Shown: one piece after another, positions 6,815 through 12,441 of the stretch | Numbering within the stretch: the stretch's first letter is position 1 | How the letters are laid out: each line of letters starts with the position of its first letter | Assembly (NCBI GenBank): GCA_018261755.1 | Contig: JAGTRJ010000011.1 | Location: forward strand, 1-64,000 | Direction of reading: 5' to 3' | Length of the DNA: 64,000 bases | Origin: Burkholderiaceae bacterium | GTDB lineage: Bacteria > Pseudomonadota > Gammaproteobacteria > Burkholderiales > Burkholderiaceae_D | The notes under the pieces: model-generated | Database searches by the model: none | What the model was told of the DNA's origin: nothing | Seen by the model: the letters and a program-made list of their open reading frames with translations, nothing else | Position numbers and translations under genes: made by a program

Positions 6815-7495
6815 TCAGCCGGGAATCTGTTCCAGCAGATAGCCGTAACCATAAACCGGCGCCAGGCGCCAGCCATTGGCCGGCCGCAAGCCAAGCTTGG
6901 CGCGCACGCGCGACACGTGCGTATCGATGCTGCGGAAAGTCGCTTCCTGCTCGCCGCCCCAGACCGATTCGAGTATCGTCGCGCGCGACAGCGGTTGCCC
7001 CGCGTGGCGGAAAAACAGCAGCGCCAGCGCGAATTCCTTTTGCGTCAGCTCGACCGGCCTGCCATCCACGCTCGCATGGCCTGTTTGCGCATCGAGCAGG
7101 CATGTCCCCAGCCGCAACTGTTCCTGCTCCGCCCGTTCAGGCCAGGCACGCCTGAGCAGCACCCGCACGCGCGCCAGCAAATCGCGCTGGCGCACCGGCT
7201 TGAGCAGGTAATCGTCCGCCGCCAGCGCCATCTCCGCCAGCATCGGGTCGGCATCGTCAAGCAGCAGCATGATCGGCAGCACGCCACCCGCCGCCGCCCT
7301 GGCATCCCGCAGCAGCGCGAGCGCAGCCTGTCCGTCTGTGGCATCGGCAACCAGCAGTTCGCAGGCGTCAACAGACAAGCCCTCGAGCAATGCCCTGACG
7401 CTGCGGTAGGCGGCGCAATCAAACCCGGCCGCGCTCAATGGTTCGTACACGGCGCGCACGCCAGCATCAGCATGGTGGAATATGGCAATTTTCAT
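6815..7495 (-). CDS. OmpR-type response regulator with degenerate receiver
   Basis: 226 residues: an N-terminal receiver-like domain (about 1-115) and a C-terminal winged-helix DNA-binding domain (about 128-222, with the segment ELTQKEFALALLFF and the recognition region RSIDTHVSRVRAKLG). The receiver looks atypical: the acidic pair after the first strand is replaced (IAIFHHADAG), and the Thr/Ser position is Leu (IMLLLDD). An Asp (VADAT) and the switch Lys (LLKP) remain. It may therefore act without ordinary phosphorylation. No kinase is adjacent. It lies 69 bp upstream of hemA on the same strand and is divergent from homospermidine synthase; targets are unknown. Confidence 0.85.
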   Translation of the reverse strand: MKIAIFHHADAGVRAVYEPLSAAGFDCAAYRSVRALLEGLSVDACELLVADATDGQAALALLRDARAAAGGVLPIMLLLDDADPMLAEMALAADDYLLKPVRQRDLLARVRVLLRRAWPERAEQEQLRLGTCLLDAQTGHASVDGRPVELTQKEFALALLFFRHAGQPLSRATILESVWGGEQEATFRSIDTHVSRVRAKLGLRPANGWRLAPVYGYGYLLEQIPG

Positions 7496-7658: not shown

Positions 7659-9077
7659 TTGGATAATCACATCAAGCACGCACAATTTTCCGGCAATCTG
7701 GTGATGGTCGGTTTTGGCAGCATCGGACGCGGCGTCCTGCCGCTTTTTCTGCGCCACCTGCAAATGGATCCATGGCAAATCATCATTTATGCGCCTGAAG
7801 GCGATCCGGAAGGGATTGCCCGCAAATACGGCGCCACATGCGAACGGCTTGCCATTACCGAAGAAAACTACAGGAGCGTGCTGGAACCGCATCTGAACAA
7901 GGGTGATTTTCTGGTGAACCTGTCGGTCAACGTTTCCAGCCTGGCCTTGATCGAACTGTGCTGGCAGCGCCATGCGCATTACATCGACACCTGCATTGAA
8001 CCGTGGGAAGGCGGCTATACCGATACTGCGCTCACCGCCTCGCAACGATCTAATTACGCGCTGCGCGAACAGGCGCTCGAATTCAGCCGCGGCAAGCACA
8101 AGGGGCCGACCGCCGTCATCTCGCAAGGCGCCAATCCCGGCCTCGTCTCAGCGTTCGTCAAGCAGGGCCTGATGAATATCGCGCACGACAATGATCTCGA
8201 GATCGAACGGCCGGATACCGCCGAAGACTGGGCCAGGCTGGCGCAACGACTCGGCATCAAGGTAATCCACATCGCCGAACGCGACACGCAAATCCCATCG
8301 CTGCGCAAGCGCCGCGGAGAATTCGTCAATACCTGGTCGATCGACGGCTTCGTCAGTGAAGGCATGCAGCCGGCCGAACTAGGCTGGGGCAGCCATGAAA
8401 AACAGTGGCCGGAAGAAGCACGCCGCCACGACTACGGTTGCGACGCAGCGATCTATCTCGACCGCCCCGGCATTCACACCCGCGTCCGCAGCTGGACGCC
8501 AATCGAAGGACCGTATCACGGCTTTTTGATCACGCATAACGAAGCGATTTCAATCGCCGACTATTTCACGCTGAAGGATGGAGATACAGTCATCTACCGC
8601 CCGACCGTGCATTACGCCTATCACCCGTGCGACGACGCGGTGCTGTCGATCCACGAAATCGCCGGCAAGAACATGCAGATGCAGGCTGGCACACGCCTGA
8701 TCCGCGACGAAATCGTCAGTGGCACCGACGAACTCGGCGTGCTCCTGATGGGCAACAAGGAAGGCGTGTACTGGTATGGTTCACGCCTGTCGATTGAGCA
8801 AGCGCGCCAGCTCGCGCCGCACAATAATGCGACCAGCCTGCAAGTCGCGGCCGGCGTGCTGGCCGGCGTGGTCTGCGCGTTGAAGGATCCGGATCTCGGC
8901 GTGGTCGAACCGGATGACATCGACGAGGAAGAAATGCTCAAAGTGGCCGAACCCTACCTCGGCGACATCGTCGGCGTGTATGGCGACTGGACCCCGCTAC
9001 AAGATCGCACCGCGCTGTTCGACGAAGATATCGACCGCGACGACCCGTGGCAATTCAAAAATATTCTGGTGAAATGA
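7659..9077 (+). CDS. hss: homospermidine synthase
   Basis: NAD-dependent enzyme making sym-homospermidine from putrescine. The product is 472 residues, matching the bacterial family. The N-terminal Rossmann segment is NLVMVGFGSIGRGVLPLFLRHL, and other conserved stretches include HYIDTCIEPWEGGYTD and SQGANPGLVSAFVKQGL. The start is TTG at 7659, the first possible initiation codon after an in-frame TAA at 7650; AGGT lies a few bases upstream. It stands alone, divergent from the degenerate regulator and convergent with the CitE-like gene. No other polyamine gene is nearby. Confidence 0.93.
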   Translation: MDNHIKHAQFSGNLVMVGFGSIGRGVLPLFLRHLQMDPWQIIIYAPEGDPEGIARKYGATCERLAITEENYRSVLEPHLNKGDFLVNLSVNVSSLALIELCWQRHAHYIDTCIEPWEGGYTDTALTASQRSNYALREQALEFSRGKHKGPTAVISQGANPGLVSAFVKQGLMNIAHDNDLEIERPDTAEDWARLAQRLGIKVIHIAERDTQIPSLRKRRGEFVNTWSIDGFVSEGMQPAELGWGSHEKQWPEEARRHDYGCDAAIYLDRPGIHTRVRSWTPIEGPYHGFLITHNEAISIADYFTLKDGDTVIYRPTVHYAYHPCDDAVLSIHEIAGKNMQMQAGTRLIRDEIVSGTDELGVLLMGNKEGVYWYGSRLSIEQARQLAPHNNATSLQVAAGVLAGVVCALKDPDLGVVEPDDIDEEEMLKVAEPYLGDIVGVYGDWTPLQDRTALFDEDIDRDDPWQFKNILVK

Positions 9078-9108: not shown

Positions 9109-9930
9109 TCAGCGCCTGCCGGCCCGCGCCAGTATCCCTTCAGCCTGCAGCAGCACCGGCTTGTCGACCATTTTGCCATCGACCTGCACCGCACCCTGCA
9201 CACTCGATACCATTGCCACCGCTGCCACCACGCGCTGCGCCCAGTCGATTTCCTTTTCTGTCGGCGCCATCGCGCGTTCGGTGGCGACAACCTGCCGCGG
9301 ATGAATGCACAGCTTCGCACCAAAACCGAAAGCGCGCGCAAACGCCAAGTCGGCCAGCAATACCGCTTCGTCGTCAATCGCCAATGTCACGCCAGCCACT
9401 GGCGCGGCAATGCCGGCGCAACGCGATGCCAGCGCAATCTGGCTGGCCGGATAAATCAGCCCGCGCTCGTCGCCGGACAGGTTCATGTCCAGCGCATAAT
9501 CGATCGTGCCAAACACGATCCGCTGCACGCCAGCCGCAGCGGCAATTTCCTCGACACGGCGCACGCCGCGTGCGGTTTCGATCAGCGGCAAGACTTCGCC
9601 GTCTTGCGGCAGAGCTGCCAGCACAGCGACAACGTCATCCGCCGATTCGGTTTTCGGCAGCATCACCAGCCTGATCCGGCTGTCGCGCAGCAGCGCCAGA
9701 TCGTCGGCAAACCACGGCGATTGCCGGTCGTTGATGCGCAACACGATATTGGCGGCATCGTTTTGTGACGAACACCAGCGGGCAATCTCGTCGCGTGCCG
9801 CCGCCTTGCTGTCTGGCGCGACCGCATCTTCCAGATCGAGAATGATGGCCCCCGCTCCGGCAGCCTGTGCCTTGACAAAACGCTCCGGCCGGTTGCCGGG
9901 AACAAACAGATAGGTAAACGGAAGCATCAT
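9109..9930 (-). CDS. HpcH/HpaI aldolase family, CitE-like CoA-ester lyase
   Basis: 273 residues of the citrate-lyase-beta-like TIM-barrel family, whose members cleave malyl-, citramalyl- or citryl-CoA-type esters with Mg2+. Conserved pieces are LFVPGNRPERFVKA at the N terminus, IILDLEDAVAP, the metal-ligand Glu region LPLIETARGV, and KLCIHPRQV near the C terminus. The substrate cannot be read from sequence, and no other citrate lyase subunits are present, so this is a stand-alone lyase. Its ATG overlaps the stop of the upstream PAS/Fe-S gene (ATGA type), implying coupled translation. Confidence 0.88.
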   Translation of the reverse strand: MMLPFTYLFVPGNRPERFVKAQAAGAGAIILDLEDAVAPDSKAAARDEIARWCSSQNDAANIVLRINDRQSPWFADDLALLRDSRIRLVMLPKTESADDVVAVLAALPQDGEVLPLIETARGVRRVEEIAAAAGVQRIVFGTIDYALDMNLSGDERGLIYPASQIALASRCAGIAAPVAGVTLAIDDEAVLLADLAFARAFGFGAKLCIHPRQVVATERAMAPTEKEIDWAQRVVAAVAMVSSVQGAVQVDGKMVDKPVLLQAEGILARAGRR

Positions 9931-10841
9931 TTTTGCGACTTGAAACCAATCCGTTGATGGCTGTTATCGCAAAATGGCTGGTTGCCGGTGCCACCGCAGC
10001 GGCACAGCGCCGCGCGGCCGGGGGTCGCGATTTCCGTGCCGCCTTCATCCTGCAGCGTGAACTGCCCCTGAAGCAACAGCGGCCCGTTGCGGCTCGCCTG
10101 AATCGCCGCACCGGTCACCGCTTCGACGGTGGTCTTCTGTTCCGCGACGCCTTCGCGCAGATAGGTCAGCGCACCAGACGGACATTTTTCGATGGTTGCC
10201 ATCACTTCCTCGACCGAAGCGGCGCCGGGCAGCACCCACGGCCGGCGATGGACATCGAACACCGCCGGCAAGGTTTTCAGGCACACCGCCGAGTGATAGC
10301 ACAGATTCGGATCAAAATTCACCGTGATTCCCGTCGCGCTGTACGACTGCAGCGGCTTTTTCGGCGCAGTTGCCGATTTTGCTGCCGATTGTGTTACCGG
10401 TTGTGTCACCGATTGCGCCACCGTTTCCTGCTGCCGGCTCTTTTCCTTCAGGTAGCGCTCGGTCGCATCGCGCGCAACCGCGGACGAACCGATGACTTCA
10501 CCTGCCCCGTTTTTCACGATGGCGAAACTGACGTCGATGTACAAACGCTCTCCGCTCTTGCTCAACGCACGGGTGATCATCGAACCGCCCTTGTGCCGCG
10601 TTTCGCCGTGCGCAATCGCCCGGCGGTAGCCATTCCAGTGCGCGTCGCGCATCGCTTCGGGAATGATCAGATCCAGGCTGTGCCCGATGGCCTCGGTCGC
10701 ATCAAAGCCGAACAGCGATTCCGCGCCATGATTCCAGATGCGGATGATGCCCTCGCGATCCGCCAGAATCAGCGCTTCCGGCATTGCAGCCAGCACATCC
10801 CGGTAAACATTTTCGATTTCATTGCCGCCGTGGTCTGCCAT
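9927..10841 (-). CDS. PAS domain fused to YjdI-type 4Fe-4S and CDGSH domains
   Basis: A 304-residue soluble protein with three parts. An N-terminal PAS domain (about 10-130; WNHGAESLFGFDATEAIG) is followed by a low-complexity Gln/Thr/Ser/Ala linker (about 142-165). Next is a single-cluster ferredoxin-like domain of the YjdI/Fer4_19 type (about 170-230; NFDPNLCYHSAVCLK and EKCPSGAL), then a C-terminal CDGSH zinc-finger-like Fe-S motif (CRCGGTGNQPFCDNSH, with Asn for Gly). The start at 10841 has GGAGAA at seven bases; an upstream ATG at 10871 lacks one. No kinase, cyclase or DNA-binding domain is present, so output is unknown. It is coupled to the CitE-like gene and lies 75 bp after the flavin reductase. 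Redox or oxygen sensing is inference. Confidence 0.88.
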   Translation of the reverse strand: MADHGGNEIENVYRDVLAAMPEALILADREGIIRIWNHGAESLFGFDATEAIGHSLDLIIPEAMRDAHWNGYRRAIAHGETRHKGGSMITRALSKSGERLYIDVSFAIVKNGAGEVIGSSAVARDATERYLKEKSRQQETVAQSVTQPVTQSAAKSATAPKKPLQSYSATGITVNFDPNLCYHSAVCLKTLPAVFDVHRRPWVLPGAASVEEVMATIEKCPSGALTYLREGVAEQKTTVEAVTGAAIQASRNGPLLLQGQFTLQDEGGTEIATPGRAALCRCGGTGNQPFCDNSHQRIGFKSQK

Positions 10842-10916
10842 GCTTCGTTCTCCAGAAATTTTCGACGCCATCGAAACGCATTCTGCCAGCAGGCTGGCGC
10901 AGGACGTTGCGTCCGT

Positions 10917-11474
10917 TCAAGCCTCGAATGCCGCGCCTGTCGTGAAAAAACTGCCGCCGGCAACGTAATGGATGGTTTTCATTTCCTCGGCCGGGAAAGT
11001 CCAGCGGCCATCGTTGAATACGCGCGGATCCGCCCAAGCCGCGACAATCTCGCCAAAGAGCAAATCGTAGTGCTGCTGGTTGTGCGCCTCAGGAATGAGA
11101 CGGCACTCAAGCCAGCCAACGCAACCATCAACCAGCGGCGCGCCGACTTTCGACGCTGGCTGCGTGCCAATCGCATATTTCGTGAATTTGTCGACATCCC
11201 TGCCTGACTCGGAGCCGACCGACAGCACGCTGGCTGCCATTGCTTTCGATGGGATGTTGACCACAAATTCGCCGCTGGCCTCGATCAGCTCCCGGCTATA
11301 GGCGGCGCTGCTGATCACAACCGCTACCTTTGGTGGAGAGAAATCCAGCGGCATGGTCCACGCCACCGCCATCACATTCTGTTTGCCGGCATGCGCGCTG
11401 GAAATCAGCGTCACCGGCCCATGGTTCAACAGCAGGTAGGATTTTTCCAAAGGAACCGCTTGTCTGGCAGACAT
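10917..11474 (-). CDS. flavin reductase family protein (FMN-binding)
   Basis: 185 residues of the flavin reductase/flavoredoxin FMN-binding split-barrel family. Characteristic segments are PVTLISSAHAGKQNVMAVAWTMPLDFSPPKV near the N terminus (residues about 20-50) and ELIEASGEFVVNIPS. Such proteins bind FMN and reduce flavins or pass electrons. The gene is 22 bp downstream of a GDSL esterase gene and 75 bp upstream of the PAS/Fe-S fusion, all on one strand, so the four genes probably form an operon. Electron transfer to the Fe-S protein is a guess from context. Confidence 0.85.
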   Translation of the reverse strand: MSARQAVPLEKSYLLLNHGPVTLISSAHAGKQNVMAVAWTMPLDFSPPKVAVVISSAAYSRELIEASGEFVVNIPSKAMAASVLSVGSESGRDVDKFTKYAIGTQPASKVGAPLVDGCVGWLECRLIPEAHNQQHYDLLFGEIVAAWADPRVFNDGRWTFPAEEMKTIHYVAGGSFFTTGAAFEA

Positions 11475-11496
11475 TTATCTTCCTTTCCATTCAGGT

Positions 11497-12120
11497 TTAA
11501 TGCAGGCCGATTTTCTTCAGCCCGGCGAACAGGCCGCTTGCCATCTCGCGATAGCCTTTGGCATTCGGATGAATCGCATCCGCGCGCAAATCGGCTTGCG
11601 CCAGCACGTTCGAAAACACGTCGACAATCACCGGCAATTTTTCTTCCTTGCCAAGCTCGGCGTAAATGGCGGCATCGGATGGACGCTTGGCCACCGCCGC
11701 CATCAGCGACGGTTCCGGCACGGCAACCAGCACGGCTGTTGCACCGCTTTGCCTGATGGTCGCCAGAATCGCGCGAAGATCATCCTTCACCGCTTTCTGC
11801 GGACGCCCGCGAAGAAAATCGTTGCCACCAATTTCAACTATCACCAACGCCGGCCTATGCTCGTCGAGCAAAGCCTTAATCCGGCCCTTGCCCGCGTCCG
11901 CGGTATCGCCGGGAATGCCGGCGTTGATGATCCGCCAGCCGGTCATGCCGGCCAAAAGCGTCGGCCAATCCTCGCCCTGCGATGCGCCGGTGCCATAAGT
12001 CACGCTATCGCCGAACGCCAGTACGGTGCTGCCGGCCGGCACAGGCGCAAGCTTAGGCGCACGTGAACATGCAGCAAGCATCAATACGGCGAACAGGAAA
12101 GCAAAGTGGCGATAAAACAT
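11497..12120 (-). CDS. GDSL-type esterase/lysophospholipase-like lipoprotein (TesA/arylesterase family)
   Basis: 207 residues, SGNH hydrolase fold. The N terminus is a lipoprotein signal peptide with lipobox LAAC at about 16-19, so the protein is membrane-anchored in the periplasm. Catalytic blocks are visible: VLAFGDSVTYGTG (Ser nucleophile), INAGIPGDT (Gly block), IVEIGGNDFLRG (Asn block) and DAIHPNAKGY (Asp and His). Acyl-ester hydrolysis is expected; the true substrate is unknown. It is the first gene of the presumed operon with the flavin reductase. Confidence 0.88.
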   Translation of the reverse strand: MFYRHFAFLFAVLMLAACSRAPKLAPVPAGSTVLAFGDSVTYGTGASQGEDWPTLLAGMTGWRIINAGIPGDTADAGKGRIKALLDEHRPALVIVEIGGNDFLRGRPQKAVKDDLRAILATIRQSGATAVLVAVPEPSLMAAVAKRPSDAAIYAELGKEEKLPVIVDVFSNVLAQADLRADAIHPNAKGYREMASGLFAGLKKIGLH

Positions 12121-12183
12121 GGGCAGTTGCCGCTATAATCGGGAAATTGCAGAATTCCCACTATAACAAACTGGCGAAAGCAT

Positions 12184-12441
12184 ATGAACACATTCCGTTT
12201 CAAGAACAACGAACATTATGAAGGTGAAACCTTGTTCGGCGGCTGCGGCTACGTCAACCGCAATGTCATCCATTTGCTGAAAAGAACCAAGAACTACATC
12301 ATTTATCGCGATCAGTGGGGCAAGACGTATAAAACCCGCCGCATGTACCACATCAAATGTGAGTTTTTCAGCAACAACTTCGAGAGCTTCTACGCTGATT
12401 CGATTGGCGAACACATGCGGTTCAAACTGGACGAGGCTTGA
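12184..12441 (+). CDS. small conserved-looking hypothetical protein
   Basis: 85 residues, rich in Asn, Tyr, Phe and basic residues (MNTFRFKNNEHYEGETLF, then NYIIYRDQWGKTYKTRR). No signal peptide, membrane segment or family was recognised. The codon use is AT-richer than that of neighbours. It begins seven bases after a GCGAAAG sequence and is divergent from the GDSL gene. The compact gap and absence of a competing ORF on the other strand suggest that it is real. Confidence 0.6.
   Translation: MNTFRFKNNEHYEGETLFGGCGYVNRNVIHLLKRTKNYIIYRDQWGKTYKTRRMYHIKCEFFSNNFESFYADSIGEHMRFKLDEA

Follow-up and report, generated by a model that had tools for sequence, protein, structure and literature searches.

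The window, meaning the whole 64,000-nucleotide stretch that was analysed (positions 1 to 64,000 of contig JAGTRJ010000011.1, assembly GCA_018261755.1, Burkholderiaceae bacterium), harbors at 12120-9109 four minus-strand open reading frames (ORFs) in tight order, which encode a GDSL lipoprotein, a PF01613 flavin protein, a fusion of a PAS domain with two iron-sulfur (Fe-S) domains, and a CitE-like lyase. The genes and their flanking features are as follows:

12184-12441 (+): conserved 85-aa ORF, a synteny anchor found at the same boundary in the third genus member, G041 (ORF and synteny)
12160-12188 (-): promoter-like site TTCATA-17-TATAGT with an extended -10, putative operon promoter (weak)
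11497-12120 (-): GDSL/TesA-like esterase lipoprotein gene, 207 aa, lipobox LAAC (ORF and Pfam)
10917-11474 (-): PF01613 flavin reductase/flavoredoxin-like FMN protein gene, 185 aa (ORF and Pfam)
9927-10841 (-): PAS-Fer4_19-CDGSH fusion gene, 304 aa (ORF and Pfam)
9109-9930 (-): CitE-like HpcH/HpaI acyl-CoA lyase gene, 273 aa, overlapping the fusion stop by ATGA (ORF and Pfam)
7659-9077 (+): saccharopine-dehydrogenase-like (homospermidine synthase-like) gene, conserved convergent neighbour and the other synteny anchor (Pfam and synteny)

The original prediction had described these four genes, with a 75-bp gap between the flavin reductase and fusion genes and translational coupling of the fusion to the lyase, and the ORFs confirmed this layout, the coupling being a 4-bp ATGA overlap and the GDSL-flavin gap 22 bp. 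The start of the fusion was placed at the ATG at 10841, which has GGAG ahead of it; the longer call from 10871 is mechanical. Pfam scores are all well above the curated cut-offs, both for the domains of the fusion (PAS_4, 43 bits; Fer4_19, 79.5; CDGSH, 56) and for its neighbours (Flavin_Reduct, 99; HpcH_HpaI, 123; GDSL, 96). The GDSL ATG is preceded, at a distance of 40 bp, by the promoter-like site, which is near chance level (2 sites found vs 1.1 expected), and no other promoter-like site was found on the minus strand inside the four genes, which are likely co-transcribed. The 85-aa ORF has no Pfam match, and PADLOC returned no match to a defence system. A response regulator gene (6815-7495, minus strand) is divergent from the homospermidine-synthase-like gene, and this pair is kept in all three genus members; its DNA-binding domain is intact, the receiver scores 16.7 vs a Pfam cut-off of 30.2 bits, and there is no acidic pair near the receiver start.

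The fusion is also present in a second MAG of the genus (G068), at 86% identity, where its neighbours are the same and the gaps similar in size. Between the two genomes, dN/dS was 0.15 for PAS, 0.05 for Fer4_19, 0.07 for CDGSH and 0.66 for the linker, indicating that both ends of the fusion are maintained by purifying selection and that the following segment is free:

10353-10430 (-): Q/T/S/A-rich linker, which differs between the two fusions in length and sequence (dN/dS 0.66, 12-aa gap)

As the window comes from a draft genome of 47 contigs, an assembly chimera or a mispredicted ORF was considered; the second MAG at 86% identity, with its spacings kept, and the purifying selection rule out such an artefact, a frameshift included. 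The combination of a PAS domain with two Fe-S modules and no standard output domain, which had been called unusual, is thus real and under selection, and it is absent from all the other genomes searched. Whole-protein searches covered 195 genomes of the family, 399 of the order and 398 of the phylum, with some overlap, as well as the genus; among these ~1,000 genomes the fusion was found in only two of the three genus members, both closely related soil bacteria. The searches of ~400 genomes scored the five best candidates per genome, by which a poor relative could be missed. No third fusion was found in the family, order and phylum searches, where each of the remaining listed matches is to one half alone, PAS or Fe-S. 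A profile search with the Fe-S half reached 62 further Pseudomonadota genomes among the 398, mostly in frames of 210-255 aa, and the N-terminal extensions of several of the longest frames, on inspection, carry no PAS and are ferritin-like (one read) or uncharacterised. Phyla outside Pseudomonadota were sampled by a peptide pattern scan and plasmids only: the scan of the species-genome collection matched close relatives only, and no plasmid record covers both halves. A check proposed with the original prediction, the recurrence of the same domain order in relatives, therefore largely failed outside the two genomes, and the general weight of a finding limited to two genomes is modest.

The third genus member, G041, encodes at the same locus a ~150-aa Fer4_19-CDGSH protein alone, its gene flanked by the homospermidine-synthase-like gene on one side and the small conserved ORF on the other; between these two anchors G041 has no PAS, flavin protein, lyase or GDSL gene. 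In the trees, the Fe-S half is sister to the free-standing G041 protein (94/95), and nine free-standing PAS proteins from the same family form the sister group of the PAS half (94/88). The halves have separate histories and are elsewhere separate genes, and the fusion, on its narrow distribution, is very young and restricted to one small Burkholderiaceae lineage. The simplest history would be that the locus had an old Fe-S gene, to which a free-standing PAS gene became fused head to tail. With three genomes only, the flavin protein, GDSL and lyase genes either arrived with this change or were lost in G041.

The Fe-S half comprises two domains:

10155-10343 (-): Fer4_19, a divergent single-cluster ferredoxin domain with invariant Cys181, His183, Cys187 and Cys220 (Pfam and alignment)
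9954-10088 (-): CDGSH (NEET) [2Fe-2S] domain with Cys280, Cys282, Cys291 and His295 (Pfam and alignment)

The ligands of both domains are invariant in 27 aligned sequences, and the Fer4_19 profile is matched over nearly its full length (positions 1-63 of 64). Two different Fe-S modules had been predicted, one of them 4Fe-4S; both modules are present, but the classical four-Cys motif (CxxCxxC...CP) is absent, all 27 sequences having C-x-H-x3-C...CP, that is, three Cys and a His. The His two residues after the first Cys (codon 10293-10295) is invariant in 27/27 Fer4_19 domains. The alignment suggests an unusual 3 Cys + His cluster site across the whole Fer4_19 family. Such a site may hold either 3Fe-4S or 4Fe-4S, the latter with a non-Cys ligand, and "4Fe-4S" is to be read as a family name only. 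The CDGSH domain has the three Cys and one His of the motif C-x-C-x2-(S/T)-x3-P-x-C-D-x2-H (CRCGGTGNQPFCDNSH; Pfam 56-60 bits) and is most likely a [2Fe-2S] site of the NEET type. A profile of the Fe-S half weakly reaches single-cluster ferredoxins, including ferredoxins I and II of 1dwl and 1fxd (E 0.002-0.1), and its predicted structure, modelled separately from the PAS half and with intermediate confidence (pLDDT 76), matched no fold at E <= 0.001.

The pairing of Fer4_19 with CDGSH is an old one and has been described before, in a paper that does not mention PAS (PMC5859297). Bacterial and archaeal Fer4_19-CDGSH proteins, annotated as "CDGSH iron-sulfur domain-containing" or "(4Fe-4S)-binding protein", have the same domain order as the C-terminal half of the fusion and keep all the ligands. 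Most of the relatives found have two CDGSH domains, whereas the fusion has one, and in the genomes searched their N-terminal additions are ferritin-like or of an uncharacterised kind and include no PAS. The best-known CDGSH protein, mitoNEET, shares the CDGSH domain with the fusion, and its [2Fe-2S] cluster is reduced via FMN by NADH/FMN/flavin reductase in vitro (PMC9490426). Unlike the fusion, mitoNEET is eukaryotic and membrane-anchored and has neither Fer4_19 nor PAS, and its reductase is Fre, not a PF01613 protein like the flavin neighbour.

The first reading of the locus had missed that the PAS half, by profile and fold, looks like a heme PAS. The features concerned are as follows:

10452-10790 (-): PAS domain of the FixL/DosP heme-PAS type (Pfam, profile and fold)
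10638-10640 (-): His68, aligned counterpart of the proximal heme ligand in FixL, DosP and FG214 and invariant across the PAS family (alignment)
10578-10580 (-): Met88, at the distal position (FixL Arg220/DosP Arg97), kept in both fusions (alignment)

In profile searches, DosP, FixL and FG214 come out as the best relatives of solved structure (E 6e-20 to 2e-12); 3lyx, a structural-genomics PAS whose cofactor is not stated, falls in the same range, and the next group, phytochrome and other PAS domains, starts from 1e-7. The predicted PAS model (pLDDT 91) has FixL, FG214, 3lyx and DosP as top fold matches, with the FAD-PAS of NifL and LOV folds lower in the list. His68, on the F-alpha helix, is invariant in 49 aligned rows; its column is that of the proximal heme ligand in FixL and DosP (PMC10468136) and aligns with the proximal ligand of FG214, His156 (PMC13060918). 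The same His is present in 18 of 20 PAS domains of larger sensors, which were picked by similarity, and in a survey the F-alpha His occurs in only 60% of the FixL/DosP cluster (PMC10468136), so the His is not a strong discriminator here. With an aligned F-alpha His and with heme PAS domains as its nearest relatives in both profile and predicted fold, the domain is assigned to the FixL/DosP/FG214 heme-PAS group and probably binds heme. FixL and DosP carry Arg220 and Arg97, respectively, at the distal position, whereas the fusion lacks this G-beta Arg of FixL-type O2 sensors and has Met88 there in both genomes, adjoining the column of the distal His175 of FG214. As Met88 is kept at the distal position, the alignment suggests a six-coordinate His/Met heme rather than FixL-like oxygen binding.

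The closest relatives of the PAS half are free-standing PAS S-box proteins of ~150 aa from Burkholderiales and other Pseudomonadota, which are up to 61% identical to it and among which it nests; their residue at the Met88 position is mostly Thr, Leu or Arg. Unlike the fusion, they are single-domain genes with no Fe-S neighbours. The fusion also differs from FixL, DosP and FG214 in having Fe-S modules in place of a kinase, GGDEF/EAL or HTH output.

Outside the two genomes, the neighbouring genes are not conserved. Across 97 family genomes, homologues of the flavin protein (best 60% identity outside the genus) and of the lyase (best 61%) are on separate contigs or at a large distance from each other, and not beside PAS or Fe-S homologues; at the threshold applied, G041 lacks a lyase homologue. 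Around the close free-standing PAS genes no recurrent neighbour was detected, and around the Fe-S genes recurrence is confined to one family. Since the flavin protein and lyase homologues do not cluster elsewhere in the family, the operon appears to be a local arrangement, and a pathway read from it is without comparative support. Conservation of the flavin reductase and lyase neighbours, the other check that had been proposed, does not extend beyond close kin. The lyase belongs to the HpcH/HpaI family, its best solved relatives being acyl-CoA lyase beta chains, and scores below the NCBIfam cut-offs of the CitE and RipC equivalogs (145.8 vs 443 and 151 vs 375 bits). Several solved relatives of the PF01613 neighbour are flavoredoxins, that is, FMN proteins; the closest, 3hmz, has a flavin reductase domain and no stated role. 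By analogy, the flavin neighbour could be an electron donor or acceptor for the fusion.

Taken together, we tentatively favour the reading that the fusion is a heme-PAS-gated Fe-S redox or cluster-transfer protein of the NEET type. A free-standing FixL/DosP-type heme-PAS protein of ~150 aa would have become attached to the N-terminus of the Fer4_19-CDGSH protein already at the locus, giving a soluble heme-gated redox protein. We infer that the PAS would bind heme b through His68 and that Met88, as the candidate distal ligand, would be displaced by O2, CO, NO or a redox change. The resulting dimer rearrangement would change how the ferredoxin-like Fer4_19 cluster and the CDGSH [2Fe-2S] cluster transfer electrons, or how labile they are. 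The PF01613 FMN protein would be the most plausible redox partner, whichever the direction of electron flow. The long, unconserved linker argues against a tight mechanical coupling, and heme gating is countered by the distal Met, which is not common to most free-standing relatives, and by the neighbours, which are unconserved outside the two genomes. It is less likely than not that one polypeptide has all three metal sites, a heme PAS, a 3 Cys + His ferredoxin-like cluster and a NEET [2Fe-2S] cluster, with heme-based sensing of a gas or of redox state directly gating the transfer of Fe-S electrons or clusters.

These same observations bear on the alternatives. The fusion may instead be a constitutive Fe-S redox or cluster-transfer protein with unchanged NEET function, whose cofactor-free PAS serves dimerisation or docking only. 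That the third genus member manages with the Fe-S half by itself, that PAS evolves faster than the Fe-S half (0.15 vs 0.05-0.07) and that the linker is unconstrained all agree with it, but the invariant His, the distal Met of both fusions and the mostly known heme PAS domains among the nearest solved relatives make it somewhat unlikely. Less probable still is a PAS that binds a flavin or a small metabolite: the cofactor of PAS domains does change, a different one being present in some members of the FixL/DosP cluster (PMC10468136), and NifL FAD-PAS and LOV folds are among the matches, albeit below the heme PAS domains, which come first by sequence and fold, and the key position is a His, not the F-alpha Trp of FAD-PAS. 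The pathway originally proposed, in which the flavin reductase reduces a redox-sensing fusion that controls or supplies the CitE-like CoA-ester lyase, draws on the tight operon with its ATGA overlap, kept in two genomes, and on the feeding of the mitoNEET CDGSH cluster by a flavin reductase (PMC9490426). It is nevertheless improbable, given the scattered flavin protein and lyase homologues of the 97 family genomes and the lack of a detectable lyase homologue in G041. Lyases of the HpcH/HpaI type, moreover, need no electrons. An effect on the CoA-ester lyase reaction thus has nothing in its support beyond likely co-transcription, and as far as the evidence goes the lyase is possibly affected through co-expression only.

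The locus represents a lineage-specific joining of two known families, with a concrete heme prediction. No function of bacterial Fer4_19-CDGSH proteins was found in the literature, and their natural fusion to a heme-type sensor hints at a redox- or gas-regulated role, which the fusion, as one soluble protein, allows to be tested. A heme-PAS-type module would here have been recruited to an output beyond kinases, cyclic-di-GMP enzymes, chemoreceptors and DNA-binding domains; if true, the fusion would pair a heme sensor with an Fe-S module as its output.

Some observations concern other PAS relatives. A link of the fusion to oxalate metabolism, prompted by a more distant group of PAS proteins, was considered and rejected: the genome of the window has an oxalyl-CoA decarboxylase above the NCBIfam cut-off (C33:10823-12484), and no PAS homologue occurs within the 16 kb read around it. 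In 10-11 of 19 Burkholderiaceae loci, these more distant free-standing PAS proteins (35-40% identical, His invariant) adjoin oxalate genes, read by eye as formyl-CoA transferase and oxalyl-CoA decarboxylase; a predicted heme-PAS-type protein thus sits inside an oxalate operon there. On a Variovorax plasmid, the stretch matched by a PAS relative (NZ_LR594664.1:287216-287626) also touches an annotated hemerythrin-domain gene.
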